64,000 nucleotides of DNA from Alphaproteobacteria bacterium (lineage in GTDB: Bacteria > Pseudomonadota > Alphaproteobacteria > Caulobacterales > Aquidulcibacteraceae): contig JAGWZE010000002.1 in NCBI GenBank assembly GCA_018969015.1, positions 124,001 through 188,000 of the forward strand. The letters run 5' to 3'. The translations under genes and the position numbers were made by a program. Below the pieces are notes generated by a model. That model made no database searches. It saw only the letters and a program-made list of their open reading frames with translations, and was not told the DNA's origin. This document shows, piece by piece, positions 3,017-15,679 of this stretch (position 1 is its first letter; every line of letters starts with the position of its first letter).

Positions 3017-3092
3017 GAGCCTGTAGCTCAGCCGGTAGAGCATCTGACTTTTAATCAGAGGGTCCCGGGTTCGAATCCCGGCGGGCTCACCA
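3017..3092 (+). tRNA. tRNA-Lys (anticodon TTT)
   Basis: The 76-base cloverleaf is complete. The acceptor strands GAGCCTG and CGGGCTC pair, the D arm is GCTC/GAGC, and the anticodon stem TCTGA/TCAGA holds the loop CTTTTAA (anticodon TTT). The T arm is CCGGG/CCCGG around TTCGAAT, the discriminator is A, and CCA is encoded. Its 3' half from 3047 is the left copy of a 47-bp direct repeat that bounds the downstream integrated element; the tRNA itself is intact. Confidence 0.97.
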
Positions 3093-3093
3093 T
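3047..3093 (+). repeat. attL: left 47-bp copy of the tRNA-Lys 3' end
   Basis: Starts ACTTTTAATCAGAGGGTCCC in the anticodon loop and runs to one base past the CCA end. It is identical over 47 bases to 14522-14568 in the same orientation, and the flanking bases differ on both sides. It is the tRNA-side attachment site left by integrase-mediated insertion. Confidence 0.93.
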
Positions 3094-3138: not shown

Positions 3139-3159
3139 CGCGGGGACACTATGGGGACA
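3139..3159 (+). repeat. Left copy of a 21-bp repeat inside the element end (candidate integrase arm site)
   Basis: CGCGGGGACACTATGGGGAC plus A, identical to 14359-14379 in the same orientation. It contains two GGGGACA units about 11 bases apart. It lies 46 bases inside the left attachment core, where tyrosine integrases have arm-type binding sites. Confidence 0.6.
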
Positions 3160-6887: not shown

Positions 6888-7196
6888 CTAGGCGTCCGGC
6901 CATAGGGCCATTTGCGCCGCCAGCGCGTGTGCGCGGGATCGGCGCGGCCTTCGCACCGCACTCGCCAGAAGCCGCTCGGCGCGGTCGGCCCGGTCGCGCT
7001 CCATCCGCGCCACACGACGCGCACCATCGAGCGCCAGGCGTAGCGACGACGCCGGACAATTCGCGCACGGGTTCGGCAGGGCGAGGCGAGCGACGCGCGC
7101 CGCAAGGTCGCGCTTCGCATCCTGGAAGCGGTGCGGGTTCCTCACGTCGAAGTGCAGACGCCGCAGCTCGGCGGCCAGCTCATCGGCGGCGCTCAT
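6888..7196 (-). CDS. Small Ala/Arg-rich protein of unknown function
   Basis: 102 aa, basic and helical, with a CANC motif at about residue 44. GGAGGG lies upstream of the ATG, and the start overlaps the stop of the preceding gene by 4 bases, consistent with coupled translation in the replication operon of the element. No family is recognised. Confidence 0.55.
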   Translation of the reverse strand: MSAADELAAELRRLHFDVRNPHRFQDAKRDLAARVARLALPNPCANCPASSLRLALDGARRVARMERDRADRAERLLASAVRRPRRSRAHALAAQMALWPDA

Positions 7197-7930
7197 CGTG
7201 CGCCCTCCGTCGTGCTGGCGGTGCGGTCATGGTCGAACGTGGCGCCGATCTCCATCCGCGCCGGGATCGGTGCGGCGGCGAGCGCGTCAACGTTCACGTC
7301 ATCGAGCAGGCCGAGCGCGTGCGCATCCCGTAGCGCAAGGATCAGCCTCGCGCGGGCGTCGGCCTCCGTCAGCTTCGGCGCGCGGTGTCGCCAGTCGTGC
7401 AGCAGATCGGCGAAGGCGAGCGCGTCGGCCTCGGCGTCGCTCGGTTCAAATGCGGCGGCCTTCGCATGGCCGGCGCGCTCGATGAAAAGCCCGGCGAGCC
7501 GTTCCAGGCGGTCGCGGCGATCCGTCGTCGGCGCGTTCCCCTCGGTGCGCGTCGGGTCGCCTTCGAGCGGTCCCGACGGACTCCACCACGCCGACGGCCG
7601 ATCTTGTCCCGCCGTGGGGACCGCGCGCGACAAGACAGCCTTGCCGTTTTGGGCCGGGACAGCCGGGACAAGCGGGACGGCGTTGATATTGCTGGCGATA
7701 GTCTGTCCCGGGACAGATTTGGACGCCGGGACAGCCGGGACAGAAGCGCCCGGGACAGGTCCGGCGCGCATCCGTGCGGCCAGCGCGGCGACACGCGCGG
7801 CGAGGTCATCGGCGGTCATTGTCCCGCTTGTCCCGGCCGCGTTTTTTGTCCCGGGACAAGGTTTCCCGTTGTCCTTCAACGTTGTCCCGGGTGTCCCGCT
7901 TGTCCCGGTCGAAATCGGGTGCGTCGTCAT
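7193..7930 (-). CDS. Low-complexity N-terminus plus helical domain, unknown function; hosts a DNA heptamer cluster
   Basis: 245 aa. The first 110 residues are low complexity, with GTSGT-type and VPAVPA-type runs that are both encoded by the DNA word TGTCCCG or its complement. Residues about 140-245 form a helical domain (RDRLERLAGLFIERAGHAKA, then ADALAFADLLHDWRHRAPKL) that looks like a normal folded protein. The start overlaps the stop of the DUF927 gene by 4 bases. Similar low-complexity proteins occur next to replication genes in related islands to my recollection, but no function is known to me. Confidence 0.55.
   Translation of the reverse strand: MTTHPISTGTSGTPGTTLKDNGKPCPGTKNAAGTSGTMTADDLAARVAALAARMRAGPVPGASVPAVPASKSVPGQTIASNINAVPLVPAVPAQNGKAVLSRAVPTAGQDRPSAWWSPSGPLEGDPTRTEGNAPTTDRRDRLERLAGLFIERAGHAKAAAFEPSDAEADALAFADLLHDWRHRAPKLTEADARARLILALRDAHALGLLDDVNVDALAAAPIPARMEIGATFDHDRTASTTEGAR
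7605..7907. repeat. Cluster of about 15 TGTCCCG / CGGGACA heptamers (candidate iterons)
   Basis: TGTCCCG starts at 7605, 7704, 7820, 7829, 7847, 7883, 7892 and 7901. CGGGACA starts at 7655, 7664, 7709, 7727, 7736, 7751 and 7852. Two opposed pairs merge into the 12-bp palindrome TGTCCCGGGACA (7704-7715, 7847-7858). Several copies are spaced exactly 9 bases. All lie within the first half of a reading frame, yet both orientations occur and encode different peptides, which argues for selection on DNA. The cluster adjoins the helicase and primase genes, so a replication origin with iterons is one explanation. Confidence 0.6.
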
Positions 7931-9918
7931 TGCGCGCCCCCGTCGTCAACGGTCCCGGCTTCGTCGGCGCCCAGAATGGAACGCTTCACGACGTAAACGC
8001 GGGGACGCCCTTGCACTTCATCGAGCCGGCGCACATGCGGACGGTCGCGCTCGCCACCGCAGACGAGGAAGCCGGCAGATTCAACGTGGACAGCGGCGCG
8101 GGTCGGGTCGGCGCCCGTGTGGATTTTCTTCCAGCCGGTCGGGTGAATGTAGAAGTGCTGCGCATCGAGCCATCCGGCGCGGTCGATCACGGTGCGCGCC
8201 GCAGACACCTTCGCCGGACCGTCGGGGCCGTGGGGATCAGCCGAATTGAAATCATAGGCCACGACGCCGCCGGTTGCGTCTCTCTCCACGACCATGCCCG
8301 GCAGCGGCTCGAAGCGCGACACGCCGTAGGTCAGAAGGAAATCACGCAAGCGCGCGACGGCCTCCATCGCCTCGGCCGATTTCCCGCCGCCGCGTGCTCC
8401 AAGCCATCCGCCAAAAGCATCGAGCGCGGCGGCTTCGGCCGCGCCTTCCTTCCAAGCGGTCAGGCTAAACATCGTCGCCAGCTCGCCCGCCGCAGCGAGC
8501 ACGGCGAAGCGTTCCAAAACGCGCTTCACTTGGCCGTCGGCGGTGGCGAGGCCGTGTGCCTTCGTCGCCTTCTCAACGAAGGTGTCCGTCAGGGTTCGGA
8601 CGCTTGCGGCCACCGCGTCGCGGCCCGCGCCGATCATTTGCGCCACGAAGGCAGGGCCGGCCGTTCCAAAATGGGCTTCGCTGGCCGCTCGCAGCGCATC
8701 GGACAGCGCGCGCCCGTCAGCCTTGTCATGCAGGTCATCGAAGGCGCCATGCTTGCGGTCATCGGCCCGCAGCTCGATGAGCCGGACAGCTTGGCCCGCC
8801 GTCGTGCGCTTGCCGGCTTCGCCTACCTTGTCGCCAAGGCTGATTTCGCCGGACGACAGGAACACAAGGCGCCACCGTTGCGGAGGCCGCGCGCGGCCGT
8901 CACGAAGCGCGCGCGCTTTGCCTTGTTCGTTCCCGAGCATGTAGACGCTCGCCGCCGCTTCGAGCGCGTTGGCTTCGCCCAGCTCATCGAGGCAAAGCAG
9001 CGTCGAATTGTGCGCCGCCGCTATGCCTTCGAGGCCGTTCGATGTGCTCCGCCATGTGCGCACGCCCTTGGCGCTTGCCCACACGCTCGCGCCAACGCGC
9101 AAGCCCGTCGTCTTGCCGCAGCTCGATGAGCCGCAGAAATGCAGGCCGAATGACGACGCGCCGACGGCTTCGAGCAGGGGCGCGGCGAAGCCCGCCGACA
9201 CGGCCAGGATGAGCAGCGGGTTCCCGGTGCAGAGTGCGGAGACTTCGCGCTTCCAGTCTTCAAGCGTTCCCTGGGCGCGCATCTCGGCGGCGGCGCTCGC
9301 CGCGATTTCGCTTTGGTAGACGACGCCCTCGGCGCCCAGCACGTCGCCACCGCCGCGCACGAAGGCGGTGCAGGTCGCGTCATTCCATCCCATTGCAGAG
9401 ACGGACAGCACGCGCGCGGTCGGTTCCGATTGCAGCAGGTACGCAATCACGTCGGCCTTTGCCGCCTTGTCGCGTCCAAGGCGCAAGCCAAGGTTCAGAA
9501 GATCGGCCAAGATCGGCGTGGCGTCGCCCGCGAACAGGCTGGCCGGGATCGTGTGGCGGTGGACGTGGCCGTCAGCGTCGGTCAACTCGACAAGCAGGCC
9601 CCAGGCTTCGCGGTCGCGGTTGCGGGAACGCGCCAGCACCTTGAGGCCGGTGCAGACGAAGCGGCGCGAGACTTTCCGTTCCTCGCCGTCGCCGTCTTCC
9701 TTCGGGATCAGCTTGAACACGCCCGCATCCGTCAGCTCGAAGCCGACAGGCAAGCCGTCAGCACGACGCGCACGGCTTTTGCGCTTCGGCGTGTCGTCGG
9801 CCGGCGGCGGCGCTTCGTCCAAGTGCGGCGCGTCGGTGTCGGCGCCGTTGAGCGGCGGGGCGGTGATTTCTTCCAGCTCGAAGGCCGGGGCGTTCGGGTT
9901 CAAATCGTCAGCGCGCAT
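7927..9918 (-). CDS. DUF927 ATPase / helicase-like replication protein
   Basis: 663 aa. A variable N-terminus (residues 1-50) is followed by the DUF927 region: GLPVGFELTDAGVFKLIPKE at 55-74, a Walker A motif GSSSCGKT at 263-270 and a Walker B motif LLCLDELGE at 307-315. The family is found in phages and genomic islands beside toprim primases and is regarded as a replicative-helicase-like ATPase. Here it directly follows a primase gene, overlapping it by 11 bases, with GGAGGCGG before the ATG. Its length is normal for the family. It probably unwinds or remodels DNA during replication of the excised element. Confidence 0.85.
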   Translation of the reverse strand: MRADDLNPNAPAFELEEITAPPLNGADTDAPHLDEAPPPADDTPKRKSRARRADGLPVGFELTDAGVFKLIPKEDGDGEERKVSRRFVCTGLKVLARSRNRDREAWGLLVELTDADGHVHRHTIPASLFAGDATPILADLLNLGLRLGRDKAAKADVIAYLLQSEPTARVLSVSAMGWNDATCTAFVRGGGDVLGAEGVVYQSEIAASAAAEMRAQGTLEDWKREVSALCTGNPLLILAVSAGFAAPLLEAVGASSFGLHFCGSSSCGKTTGLRVGASVWASAKGVRTWRSTSNGLEGIAAAHNSTLLCLDELGEANALEAAASVYMLGNEQGKARALRDGRARPPQRWRLVFLSSGEISLGDKVGEAGKRTTAGQAVRLIELRADDRKHGAFDDLHDKADGRALSDALRAASEAHFGTAGPAFVAQMIGAGRDAVAASVRTLTDTFVEKATKAHGLATADGQVKRVLERFAVLAAAGELATMFSLTAWKEGAAEAAALDAFGGWLGARGGGKSAEAMEAVARLRDFLLTYGVSRFEPLPGMVVERDATGGVVAYDFNSADPHGPDGPAKVSAARTVIDRAGWLDAQHFYIHPTGWKKIHTGADPTRAAVHVESAGFLVCGGERDRPHVRRLDEVQGRPRVYVVKRSILGADEAGTVDDGGAQ

Positions 9919-10897
9919 AGGCCGCCTCCGTGATCTTGGCGGCTTCCCGCATCGTCCAATCGTTCCAATCGTTCAGGCCGTCCGGCGCCCAGGCGAGCGC
10001 CACCGACACGCCCCGCCGCGCCAGCTCCACGCCGAGCGCGCGCGCATGACGCTCGCCGGTTCCGCCTTCGTCGCGGTCGGGGGCGATCACGACACGGCGC
10101 ACCGTGTCGGGGATTTCCAGCTTCGGCAGGTTCGACGCGCCGAGCACGGCCACGGCCGGCAAGCCGAGCGCTCGGCTTGCGCTCAACGCGCTTTCGATTC
10201 CCTCGGCGATCACGAGCGCGTCGCGCACGTCGCCCAGGATGACGCCGCCGCCCGTGATCGGGCCAAGCGACAGCTTGGGCTTTTCCAACTCGGAGCACTT
10301 GCGCCCGGGCGGCTCCAAAAAGATCCGCTGAATTGCGATCACGTCATGAGGCGCGGACAGCTTCGACACGCCGCCGATGAGCGCGGGGCGCTCGCCGCGA
10401 AGCGGTCCGCAATAGCACCGCGCTAGGAAGCGCAGCGACGGCCCCCAGGGCGGGCGAAGTGCGCGCGTCTTCTCCAAATAGACGCCGCCGAGCGTGGCGC
10501 GGTGGACGGCCTTCGCCTTGGCCCAATCCCGCAGCGCGTGCTTGGCGTTGCGGGCGCGCGCCTCGGCCGCGTCGGCCTCATCCTTCGCGGCGGCCTCACG
10601 GTTCCGCGCCATGCGCTCCGGGTCGGCCTCCAAGTAGTCATTCGTCAGAAGCCAATCAGCGGCCTCGGCGCGGTCGCGCGCATAGCCCAGCTCAATGACT
10701 GCATCGAGCACGCCGCCGCCTTTCCCGGTTCGATGGTCGAACCACGTCCGGGCGTTCAGGTCGGCGACGAAGCCGCCGTTGTGGCCCGCGCGGCATTTTC
10801 CGTTTTTCTCCCGCCGATGGTCGGGCGGCATGAGGGGATCAATCAGCGTGGCGAAGGCGTCGCGGCTGATTTGCGCCTTAAGGTCGGTGGCGGTCAT
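9908..10897 (-). CDS. Toprim-domain DNA primase
   Basis: 329 aa. The N-terminal part holds a CHC2-like region (KCRAGHNGGF near residue 34, then TWFDHRTGKGGGVLDAVIEL). The C-terminal half has a toprim domain with the acidic motifs VIAEGIESA (about 217-225) and VVIAPDRDEGG (about 256-266), which bind metal in primases of this type. It makes RNA primers for replication of the element, with the adjacent DUF927 ATPase as the likely helicase partner. Its start overlaps the stop of the zinc-ribbon gene by 4 bases. Confidence 0.88.
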   Translation of the reverse strand: MTATDLKAQISRDAFATLIDPLMPPDHRREKNGKCRAGHNGGFVADLNARTWFDHRTGKGGGVLDAVIELGYARDRAEAADWLLTNDYLEADPERMARNREAAAKDEADAAEARARNAKHALRDWAKAKAVHRATLGGVYLEKTRALRPPWGPSLRFLARCYCGPLRGERPALIGGVSKLSAPHDVIAIQRIFLEPPGRKCSELEKPKLSLGPITGGGVILGDVRDALVIAEGIESALSASRALGLPAVAVLGASNLPKLEIPDTVRRVVIAPDRDEGGTGERHARALGVELARRGVSVALAWAPDGLNDWNDWTMREAAKITEAAYAR

Positions 10898-11339: not shown

Positions 11340-11603
11340 TTACGCCGGTTGACGACGGGCCGCCGCGTCGGCGGCGGTGGAAGCCTTCGGCGTCATGCGC
11401 GCCAAAAGCCACGCCTCGAAGGCGCTCCACTCGTAGAGCACGACGGACGTTTTCGGCTTCACGAACGGCGGGCCGCCGCCAACGCAGCGCAACTTGGCGA
11501 GCGTGGCGACGCTCGGCAGGTCGCCGCGCGAAATGTCGTGCAGGTGAGCGAAACGGGCGAGGGCTTCGTCAGCGCGAAGCCGGTTCGATCCGGGGGCGGT
11601 CAT
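11340..11603 (-). CDS. AlpA-like / excisionase-type helix-turn-helix protein
   Basis: 87 aa from the ATG at 11603. The central segment (LPSVATLAKLRCVGGGPPFV, then VVLYEWSAFEAWLLARM) matches the MerR-like winged-helix pattern of AlpA and excisionase proteins: TLAxxRxxGxGPxFxK, a hydrophobic strand, then a helix ending AWL. Such proteins regulate integrase and replication genes or aid excision. Its place between integrase and primase is typical of phage satellites. The open frame extends upstream, but the sequence before 11603 is not protein-like. Confidence 0.7.
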   Translation of the reverse strand: MTAPGSNRLRADEALARFAHLHDISRGDLPSVATLAKLRCVGGGPPFVKPKTSVVLYEWSAFEAWLLARMTPKASTAADAAARRQPA

Positions 11604-12707: not shown

Positions 12708-12979
12708 TGCTTCGCCCCTTCGGCCAGAAGGCGCTCAACGTCGGCCGCAATCAGGTCGATCACGTCGCGCGTGTCGCCCGCCTCGATGGAGCGCCATGCG
12801 TGCAGCTTCACGAGCACGTCGGCCAGCGTCGGCGCGGGCGTCGTCAGCAGCAGCTCGGCGCGGTCTTGCTCGTAAGACGCCAGCGCGTCGAACGTGACGC
12901 CCTCGCCCTCGAAGGCGGCCACCGCCGCCGCCACTTCGTCAAAGTCGGCCTTCGCCGCGTCAAATGCGTGTCGCGTCAT
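12704..12979 (-). CDS. Small acidic protein of unknown function
   Basis: 91 aa, acidic and helical (FDAAKADFDEVAAAVAAFEG, then DVLVKLHAWRSIEAGDTRDV). Its ATG overlaps the integrase stop by 4 bases, so it is translated after the integrase on the same message. No family is recognised. Confidence 0.55.
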   Translation of the reverse strand: MTRHAFDAAKADFDEVAAAVAAFEGEGVTFDALASYEQDRAELLLTTPAPTLADVLVKLHAWRSIEAGDTRDVIDLIAADVERLLAEGAKQ

Positions 12980-14310
12980 CCTTCACCCTCCACCTTGCGC
13001 GCTCGGCGCGCTTTCGCCTCCGCAAGACGCGCGGGGGCCGTCGTGATTTGGTTTCCGATTTGGGCCACGGCGTCGCGGACCGGATCGGCGGCAAGGTGCG
13101 CATAACGCGCCGTCGTCGCGGCTTGGCGGTGGCCCAGGATTTTGCCGATCAGCAGCAGCGACGCGCCACGGGCGGCGGCGAAGGACGCCACGCTATGCCG
13201 CAGGTCATGCAAGCGCACGTCGTGCAGCTTGGCTTCCTTCCGCACACGGCGCCACGGGCGTTCCAAATCGTCGGCGGGGGCCAAGGGTTCCTTCGTCGTC
13301 TCGTCAATCGGTGCGCGCGGGCCGGGGAAGACGAACGCACCGTTGCGCGGGCGTTCGTTCAGCAGTTGGAGCGCGGCGGGCGACAGGTGAATAACGCGCT
13401 CGCCCGTCTTGCCGCGCTCACGCGGAAGGCGGATCAAGGCGCGCTCGAAGTCGATTTCCGCCCAACGAAGGCGCGTGATCTCCCGCAGGCGGGCGCCGGT
13501 CAAAAGCAGCAGGCGGATTTGATCGGCGTGGACGTTGAGCAGGTCGCCCGCGTTCGTCAGCGTCGTCAGGGTTTCGAGCAGGGTCCCGGTTTCCTCATCC
13601 GTCAGGAAGCGCTCGCGCGTGCGCGGCGTCGGTTTCTTGACCTTCGTGACCGGGTTCCGGTCGATCAGCTCGCGCTCGATGGCCCAGCTAAAGACGGTTC
13701 CGAGCGCCACCGTGGACGCGCGGCCGGCGGCTTCGCCGCCCCGGATGATGCGCTTCGCCCGGGGGCGGTCTTTGATCTTCTCCGAGCGCGCCGTCTTCCC
13801 GGCGATAATGTCGGCCTGCATTTGCTCCACGTCGGCCCGGCGGACCGCATGGGCGTACAGCTTCCCAATCAGCGGCTTGACGTGGTTCCGCAACATGCCC
13901 GCGTCGTGCTCCCAGGATCGGGTGCGCTTGTTCGGGTTCAGGGCGGGGCCGTCGGTCAAATAGCGCTCGATGAGGTCGGACACGGTGATTTGCCGGCGGC
14001 GGGCTTCCTCAGCCGCGCGCTCGGCTTCCTCGGCCTGGGCCATCGGGTCGCCGCCTTGCTGCACGATGAGCCGCAGACGCTCGGCCTCGGCGCGCGCCTG
14101 GGCGACGGTGAAGTGTCCCGACAGGGTTCCAAGCGTCGCCCGCCGCTGGCGGCCGTCGGCGGCCTTGTATTTGAGCCGGAAGGACACCGCCCCCGACGTG
14201 CGGACGCGGACGTGGAAGCCGGGAATGGTCCGGTCGAACACGTCGTAGTCCGCCGGGCCGGGCTTCAGGGCTTCGAGCGCCCGGGCCGTCAGGTTGATCT
14301 TTTCCGCCAT
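12976..14310 (-). CDS. Tyrosine-type site-specific integrase
   Basis: 444 aa, normal length. The N-terminal DUF4102-like arm-binding domain (residues 1-95) is followed by a core-binding domain (about 105-215) and a catalytic domain. Catalytic residues are all present: R274 in TGARLREI, H368 and R371 in LHDLRHS, H394 in LGHR, and the nucleophile Y403 in ARYAHL. GGAGGG precedes the ATG. Its gene is adjacent to the right attachment site, with candidate arm sites between. It should catalyse integration into, and excision from, tRNA-Lys, and appears intact. Confidence 0.95.
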   Translation of the reverse strand: MAEKINLTARALEALKPGPADYDVFDRTIPGFHVRVRTSGAVSFRLKYKAADGRQRRATLGTLSGHFTVAQARAEAERLRLIVQQGGDPMAQAEEAERAAEEARRRQITVSDLIERYLTDGPALNPNKRTRSWEHDAGMLRNHVKPLIGKLYAHAVRRADVEQMQADIIAGKTARSEKIKDRPRAKRIIRGGEAAGRASTVALGTVFSWAIERELIDRNPVTKVKKPTPRTRERFLTDEETGTLLETLTTLTNAGDLLNVHADQIRLLLLTGARLREITRLRWAEIDFERALIRLPRERGKTGERVIHLSPAALQLLNERPRNGAFVFPGPRAPIDETTKEPLAPADDLERPWRRVRKEAKLHDVRLHDLRHSVASFAAARGASLLLIGKILGHRQAATTARYAHLAADPVRDAVAQIGNQITTAPARLAEAKARRARKVEGEG

Positions 14311-14351: not shown

Positions 14352-14379
14352 GGGGACACGCGGGGACACTATGGGGACA
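14352..14379 (+). repeat. Right GGGGACAC array (candidate integrase arm sites)
   Basis: Three GGGGACA(C) units in direct orientation start at 14352, 14362 and 14373. The last 21 bases (14359-14379) are identical to 3139-3159 at the left end. They lie about 140 bases inside the right attachment core and next to the integrase gene, as expected for integrase arm-binding sites. Confidence 0.6.
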
Positions 14380-14521
14380 CGGTTACTGCAATTCAACGCA
14401 ATTCGCGGAAATGCGCCGCCACGGCCGCGCGCTCGATTTTCCGCGCTATAGCTGGCAAAACGTCCACTAGGCGCAATTCGGAGCAATCGGACGGAACGCG
14501 GCGAAAAGGCTTGCCAGTCTT

Positions 14522-14568
14522 ACTTTTAATCAGAGGGTCCCGGGTTCGAATCCCGGCGGGCTCACCAT
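14522..14568 (+). repeat. attR: right 47-bp copy of the tRNA-Lys 3' end
   Basis: Identical over 47 bases to 3047-3093. It contains only the anticodon loop to CCA part of tRNA-Lys; no 5' half precedes it, so it is not a functional tRNA. Confidence 0.93.
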
Positions 14569-15434: not shown

Positions 15435-15578
15435 CGCTCACGCCTCCATCCCAAGGCGTGAGTGTAAGTCCGCTCAAGTCAAAGGCGCAAACAATCCAAA
15501 AAAATAGCGGTTTTTGTTGGATTTCCCTATATTTTGTAGTTACTTAGTTCGTTAAGTCTCCCGCGGCGGGCGCTCATT

Positions 15579-15648
15579 CCGCCCTCCGCCCTCCGCCCTC
15601 CGCCCTCCGCCCTCCGCCCTCCGCCCTCCGCCCTCCGCCCTCCGCCCT
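15579..15648. repeat. Ten tandem copies of the heptamer CCGCCCT
   Basis: Exactly ten perfect 7-base units (70 bp) followed by a partial unit, 31 bases beyond the stop of the chemotaxis receptor gene. On the receptor's coding strand the unit reads AGGGCGG. It is a simple-sequence tract likely to vary in copy number; it lies in the 3' untranslated part of the receptor transcript and not in a gene I accept. Confidence 0.9.
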
Positions 15649-15679
15649 CCGCCGCCGTCGCAGAGGCGCGCCCGCCCGC

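Follow-up and report, generated by a model that had tools for sequence, protein, structure and literature searches.

A TGTCCCG iteron array directly downstream of a DUF927 helicase gene is a probable replication origin of an integrated alphaproteobacterial island

The Rep protein of the SaPIs recognises downstream iterons via its C-terminal domain, and the primases of these islands are of the AEP type (PMC7581432). The origin of Gram-negative PICIs is the region 3' of rep, which contains two sets of iterons around an AT-rich region; for EcCICFT073, a plasmid carrying rep and ori replicated, a rep mutant did not, and deletion of ori lowered the number of colonies (PMC6092414). In the sequence of EcCICFT073 we counted 11 GGTAGA words 3' of the primase gene, several of them as GGTAGACA. 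The crr region of P4, with its opposed type I repeats, is located directly 3' of the alpha gene, and the structure of the C-terminal domain of the alpha protein has been solved (1ka8).

The window analysed here, a 64-kb stretch of a 3.4-Mb alphaproteobacterial genome, contains an island of about 11.5 kb flanked on both sides by the 3' end of tRNA-Lys, repeated over 51 bp (98%). On one strand, the tyrosine integrase gene comes first, followed by small ORFs, the genes for a Toprim_3/DUF7146 primase and a DUF927 helicase, and lastly a 245-aa ORF. The features of the island are as follows.

3043-3093, + strand: att repeat, 3' end of tRNA-Lys(ttt) (3017-3092)
14518-14568, + strand: second att repeat, 51 bp, 98%
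12976-14310, - strand: tyrosine integrase of the island
9908-10897, - strand: Toprim primase (DUF7146 and Toprim_3)
7927-9918, - strand: DUF927 helicase of 663 aa, Rep-like initiator (Pfam PF06048, E 5e-71; PHROG primase/helicase)
7930-8376, - strand: residues 515-663 of the DUF927 protein, its C-terminal domain and the proposed reader of the iterons (AlphaFold2 and Foldseek)
7193-7930, - strand: 245-aa ORF; the first ~108 codons are the array, the C-terminal part resembles a small ORF of related elements
7605-7907, no strand: array of 15 TGTCCCG/CGGGACA words, proposed replication origin or cis replication region
7605-7757, no strand: first iteron set, CGGGACA on the + strand in 6 of 8 words, includes the palindrome at 7704-7715
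7758-7819, no strand: word-free central spacer, 62 bp, GC-rich
7820-7907, no strand: second iteron set, TGTCCCG on the + strand in 6 of 7 words, includes the palindrome at 7847-7858

The primase and the DUF927 gene had been named as such in a preliminary description made from the sequence alone, and Pfam searches gave the same identities. The DUF927 helicase also matched NCBIfam SCCmet_Cch1 (E 1e-12, under the cut-off), and a scan of the genome contigs with this protein returned one locus only. With its own att site and integrase, 11.5 kb between the att repeats and int, primase and helicase genes on the same strand, the island has the size and, for these three genes, the direction used to define Gram-negative PICIs (10-20 kb, one direction). 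It is not classed as a PICI because of the AlpA, helper and packaging criteria; no AlpA was recognised among the island ORFs scanned. The island is probably satellite- or plasmid-like. The small ORF at 11340-11603, between the integrase and primase genes, gave only a weak match, to a PHROG of unknown function. Near both ends of the island a direct repeat, CGCGGGGACACTATGGGGACA, is present (3139-3159 and 14359-14379), with GGGGACA beside the right copy; these repeats are probably arm sites of the integrase, with a word resembling the iteron. The arm-like repeat GGGGACACTATGGGGACA had only two matches in viral contigs, was likewise taken as a probable integrase site and was rejected as part of the array. 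A dense GGGCGGA/CCCTCCG cluster at 15578-15660, just 3' of a chemotaxis-receptor-like ORF, resembles a short tandem repeat.

The array starts 20 bp past the stop codon of the DUF927 helicase. A recount in 7605-7907 confirmed what had been described previously, namely 15 exact heptamers in both orientations (8 on the + and 7 on the - strand), two 12-bp palindromes and 9-base spacing. Only five more TGTCCCG/CGGGACA words are found elsewhere in the window, and with 241 words in the 3,398,043 bases of the genome about 0.02 are expected per 303 bp, so that the proposed comparison with the genome background also came out in favour of the array. It is the densest heptamer cluster of the window, as no other heptamer reaches 15 copies in a 303-bp stretch. 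The palindrome TGTCCCGGGACA (7704-7715 and 7847-7858) has only these two copies in the genome, and the five genomic pairs of 9-bp-spaced words TGTCCCGNNTGTCCC are all inside the array. Steps of 9 bp separate the words at 7655/7664, 7727/7736, 7820/7829 and 7883/7892/7901. The two iteron sets are mainly opposed in orientation, and the spacer between them contains 20-27% A+T in 30-bp blocks. The many island ORFs without a recognised family would fit a dead island, in which the array is real and its function as an origin has been lost. The integrase, primase and helicase reading frames are open, however, 15 exact copies of the word remain and the att repeats are 98% identical, and such decay is considered quite unlikely.

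As the array is part of the ORF that follows in the operon, its 9-bp iterons are read as 3-codon peptide repeats. The start of the 245-aa ORF overlaps the DUF927 stop, and searches of this ORF against Pfam, PHROG and NCBIfam gave no match. As described previously, the two orientations encode different peptides, GTSGTPGT in one half and VPAVP in the other. The location of the array within an open reading frame which overlaps the helicase stop could mean that the GT- and VP-rich peptides are under selection and that codon bias gives rise to the DNA word. When codons were re-drawn for the same peptide, at most 4 words were obtained (mean 0.5), and permutation of synonymous codons within the gene of the 245-aa ORF gave at most 8 (mean 1.4), compared to the 15 observed, supporting the earlier view that the DNA word and not the peptide explains the repeats. 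Selection on the peptides is also difficult to reconcile with the different peptides encoded by the two orientations and with related elements whose arrays lie in non-coding DNA or encode other peptides. The downstream ORF of locus L279 keeps a related C-terminal motif, AYEERAAIMEYDGG, and its array encodes VAPVAPVAP, not GTSGT or VPAVP; locus L295 has an ORF similar to that of L279, without the array. The kinship of both ORFs with the 245-aa ORF rests on this short motif, and a phmmer search with the 245-aa ORF found no match besides the window itself. In the comparison of homologues, a peptide kept while the DNA word was lost was not seen; words and peptides both differ. Based on the codon nulls and the relatives with other peptides, the protein-repeat explanation was rejected as extremely improbable, and the peptide repeats are most likely a by-product of the DNA word.

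The array is of a type already known from the origins of SaPIs, PICIs and P4, a layout that was missed in the preliminary description, as was the likely role of the helicase C-terminal domain as reader; it departs from the known origins in its coding location and GC-rich centre. As in the rep-ori regions of SaPIs and PICIs, it lies immediately 3' of the initiator gene and consists of two iteron sets. With SaPIbov1 the window shares a DUF927-type helicase gene followed directly by a short-iteron array, as well as a similar modelled C-terminal fold (8tch). The island differs from SaPIbov1 in its tRNA-Lys site, its lineage, its Toprim primase (AEP in SaPIs) and in an array that lies in coding sequence with a GC-rich centre. 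The EcCICFT073 PICI has int, primase, rep and then ori on one strand with the iterons 3' of rep, as in the window, and a word of similar general form (GGTAGACA compared to CGGGACA), whereas its initiator is a P4-alpha-like primase-helicase, as indicated by a match of the C-terminal domains. The AT-rich centre of Gram-negative PICI origins is absent from the spacer of the window. P4 crr likewise has opposed 8-bp repeats, some of them 9 bp apart, immediately 3' of a primase-helicase gene. Its type I repeats carry another word (GGTGAACA compared to TGTCCCG), the alpha C-terminal domain has no homology to the DUF927 domain detectable by hhalign, and P4 contains, at a distance from alpha, another array (ori). 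Since the window array matches PICI origins in position and in its two sets, it probably works like a PICI origin.

Viral contigs were scanned for three TGTCCC words at 9-bp steps. Among the matches listed, 120 stretches, 55 contained bi-oriented arrays (three or more copies per orientation in a 350-bp span), compared to 3 of 119 for the reversed-word control. In the 56 best loci, which were selected on the word and therefore inform on position and not on frequency, the 3' end of a large primase/helicase gene is mostly no more than about 150 bp from the array start. The helicases belong to the AAA_25, VapE-like, DUF5906, DUF927, DUF3987 and D5_N classes, and besides the helicase no gene family is common to most of the arrays. 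At the array centres of five loci (L017, L019, L021, L044 and L062) the spacer is often an alternating purine-pyrimidine (CG/CA) run, not AT-rich DNA. A literature search for TGTCCC or GGGACA together with replication or iteron found nothing relevant.

Arrays with other words are present at the same position. Annotated DUF927 relatives have arrays of GGTGTGACA (pMNOD05), GGTGGTAC (pSR-7), GGTAACA (a Salmonella record), TGGGACA (Legionella fallonii plasmid III) and GGGGAACAG (phiAH14b) 3' of the gene, and no array was found 3' of the DUF927 gene of the Cereibacter p.C plasmid. Such arrays were counted in viral contigs and sampled genomes, a strict array being defined as five or more copies in both orientations with two or more neighbours spaced 8-10 bp. 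Strict arrays were found in 41 of 90 unique windows downstream of DUF927 genes compared to 7 of the 2010 remaining windows at these loci, downstream of 42 of 69 AAA_25 helicases (3 of 1005 other windows) and downstream of 11 of 51 VapE helicases (0 of 961); the DUF927 survey was protein-based and the other two were seeded with the TGTCCC loci, and unique loci share less than 95% protein identity, so that lineages are not independent. About half of the DUF927 loci pass no strict array test, some of which have weaker arrays. Same-orientation neighbours in DUF927 arrays are 9 bp apart in 146 cases, compared to 17 each for 8 and 10 bp. The array consensus contains ACA in 36 of 51 DUF927, 28 of 42 AAA_25 and 10 of 11 VapE arrays. 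A close relative of the island with the same word was not found in these surveys. In phage contigs this anatomy adjoins helicases of several classes, and on circular plasmids it adjoins the DUF927 gene. That homologous elements have arrays of like geometry in the same position, whether in coding sequence or not, supports, at the sequence level, the initial suggestion of an iteron array or a site for a replication protein. Three of the plasmid records (L256, L257 and L259) are circular, and their annotation names no other replication initiator in the stretch surrounding the DUF927 gene; these plasmids are candidates for DUF927-driven replicons. In locus L306, ten copies of AACCCT, in both orientations, lie roughly 6 kb upstream of the DUF927 gene, unlike the downstream position elsewhere.

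Clustered short repeats also serve in partition, incompatibility and regulation, which would allow the array to be such a site of the island and not its origin. None of the ORFs scanned was recognised as a partition gene, though, the position 3' of helicases is consistent across classes, and the same layout is a replication site in P4 crr and EcCICFT073, which makes this explanation very unlikely.

The question which protein reads the array was addressed with structure models and with comparisons of word and domain. In an AlphaFold2 model, DUF927 residues 515-663 (pLDDT 81.8) form a winged helix for which the best PDB match in Foldseek, a moderate one, was the SaPIBov1 Rep helicase 8tch (E 4.7e-3, probability 1.00, TM 0.52), followed by the TcpK-oriT complex 5vfx, and a profile search against PDB sequences gave no meaningful match. 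For the C-terminal domain of AAA_25 helicases, the model (pLDDT 89.1) also had a fold like that of a winged helix, and it weakly matched CRP-like and other winged-helix domains. A C-terminal domain common to the helicase classes was rejected, as hhalign detected homology only between P4 and EcCICFT073. Partial Mantel tests, in which relatedness is allowed for through the helicase term only, were performed for DUF927 and afterwards for AAA_25. For DUF927 the word did not significantly follow C-terminal identity (rho 0.013, 384/999) and weakly tracked helicase identity (0.083, 15/999). For AAA_25 word similarity followed C-terminal identity at fixed helicase identity (partial rho 0.24, 0/1999 permutations), also within a close group (partial rho 0.59, 11/1999), and in the reverse test did not follow the helicase given the C-terminal domain. 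Glutamine at the FQRA position, in the predicted recognition helix of the AAA_25 C-terminal domain (L456-L470, L479, L496), occurs with CGGGACA in 10 of 11 cases, compared to 2 of 17 cases without it, a post hoc observation in which 7 of the 10 belong to one related group.

Word switches between related loci bear on the same question. Loci L319, L324 and L305 have the same 13-copy geometry, although the word is GTGGTTACA in L319 and L324 and GTGGCTACA in L305, and L327 has a closely similar layout with 12 copies of GTGGGAACA. Over most of their alignment, the L327 and L331 helicases share 98-100% identity, which falls to 52% in the C-terminal domain, and their array words, located between this domain and an identical flank, differ; from the sequence this looks like an exchange of C-terminal domain and array as a unit. 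In some DUF927 pairs the word has changed though the C-terminal domains are 84-94% identical. One of these switches, L357/L364 (94%), does not single out the reader because the N-terminal part has diverged as well. A site read by the primase, the product of the 245-aa ORF or another factor instead of the DUF927 C-terminal domain would agree with such N-terminal differences, with the negative DUF927 Mantel test and with the recurrence of ACA/TGT-core words beside helicases whose C-terminal domains lack detectable homology. We regard it as unlikely, as the AAA_25 word follows the C-terminal domain, the DUF927 C-terminal fold matches SaPIBov1 Rep and the helicase is the only gene family common to most arrays. 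The window array is most likely read by the C-terminal domain of the DUF927 helicase itself. Because of the DUF927 Mantel result, this assignment rests on the fold, SaPI biology and the L327/L331 exchange, and not on a DUF927-wide statistic.

Taken together, we consider the array to be the origin (cis replication region) of the integrated island, read by the DUF927 C-terminal domain, with a probability of roughly 0.8. This is because the array exceeds what codon use yields, is unique in the genome and adjoins the helicase stop, and because the same anatomy is found 3' of DUF927, AAA_25 and VapE helicases, in P4 crr and in the EcCICFT073 ori. The modelled fold of the C-terminal domain, the AAA_25 Mantel result and the L327/L331 pair also speak for it. 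The GC-rich spacer, the approximately half of the DUF927 loci that are arrayless by the strict test, the DUF927 Mantel null, the word changes beside C-terminal domains of 84-94% identity, the failure to find a close relative with the same word and the moderate Foldseek match count against it. The island would excise from tRNA-Lys through its own integrase. The DUF927 helicase would then bind the two opposed TGTCCCG iteron sets just downstream of its own gene via the C-terminal winged-helix domain, a step suggested by the fold, the relatives and the association between word and domain. By analogy with SaPI Rep, two helicase assemblies may load face to face and melt the DNA in or beside the array, after which the Toprim primase would prime synthesis.

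The window array probably belongs to a much larger group of origins in phages and plasmids, in which the word and its reader appear to change together. The surprising part is the ACA-anchored word common to unrelated helicases. Somewhat speculatively, phages, satellites and plasmids of proteobacteria might share a general origin platform, with 9-bp iterons of a variable pair plus ACA directly 3' of replicative helicases of at least three to four classes, readers of no detectable relatedness, reader and array swapped as a cassette, and word copies changing in concert. If so, the ACA core shared across unrelated readers would have to reflect some further constraint common to them all, such as priming or melting. 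Because the word has switched naturally among near-identical helicases, the code by which these initiators read DNA can be tested directly, and iteron arrays explain the odd VP-, GT- and VAP-repeat peptides encoded beside the helicases of mobile elements.
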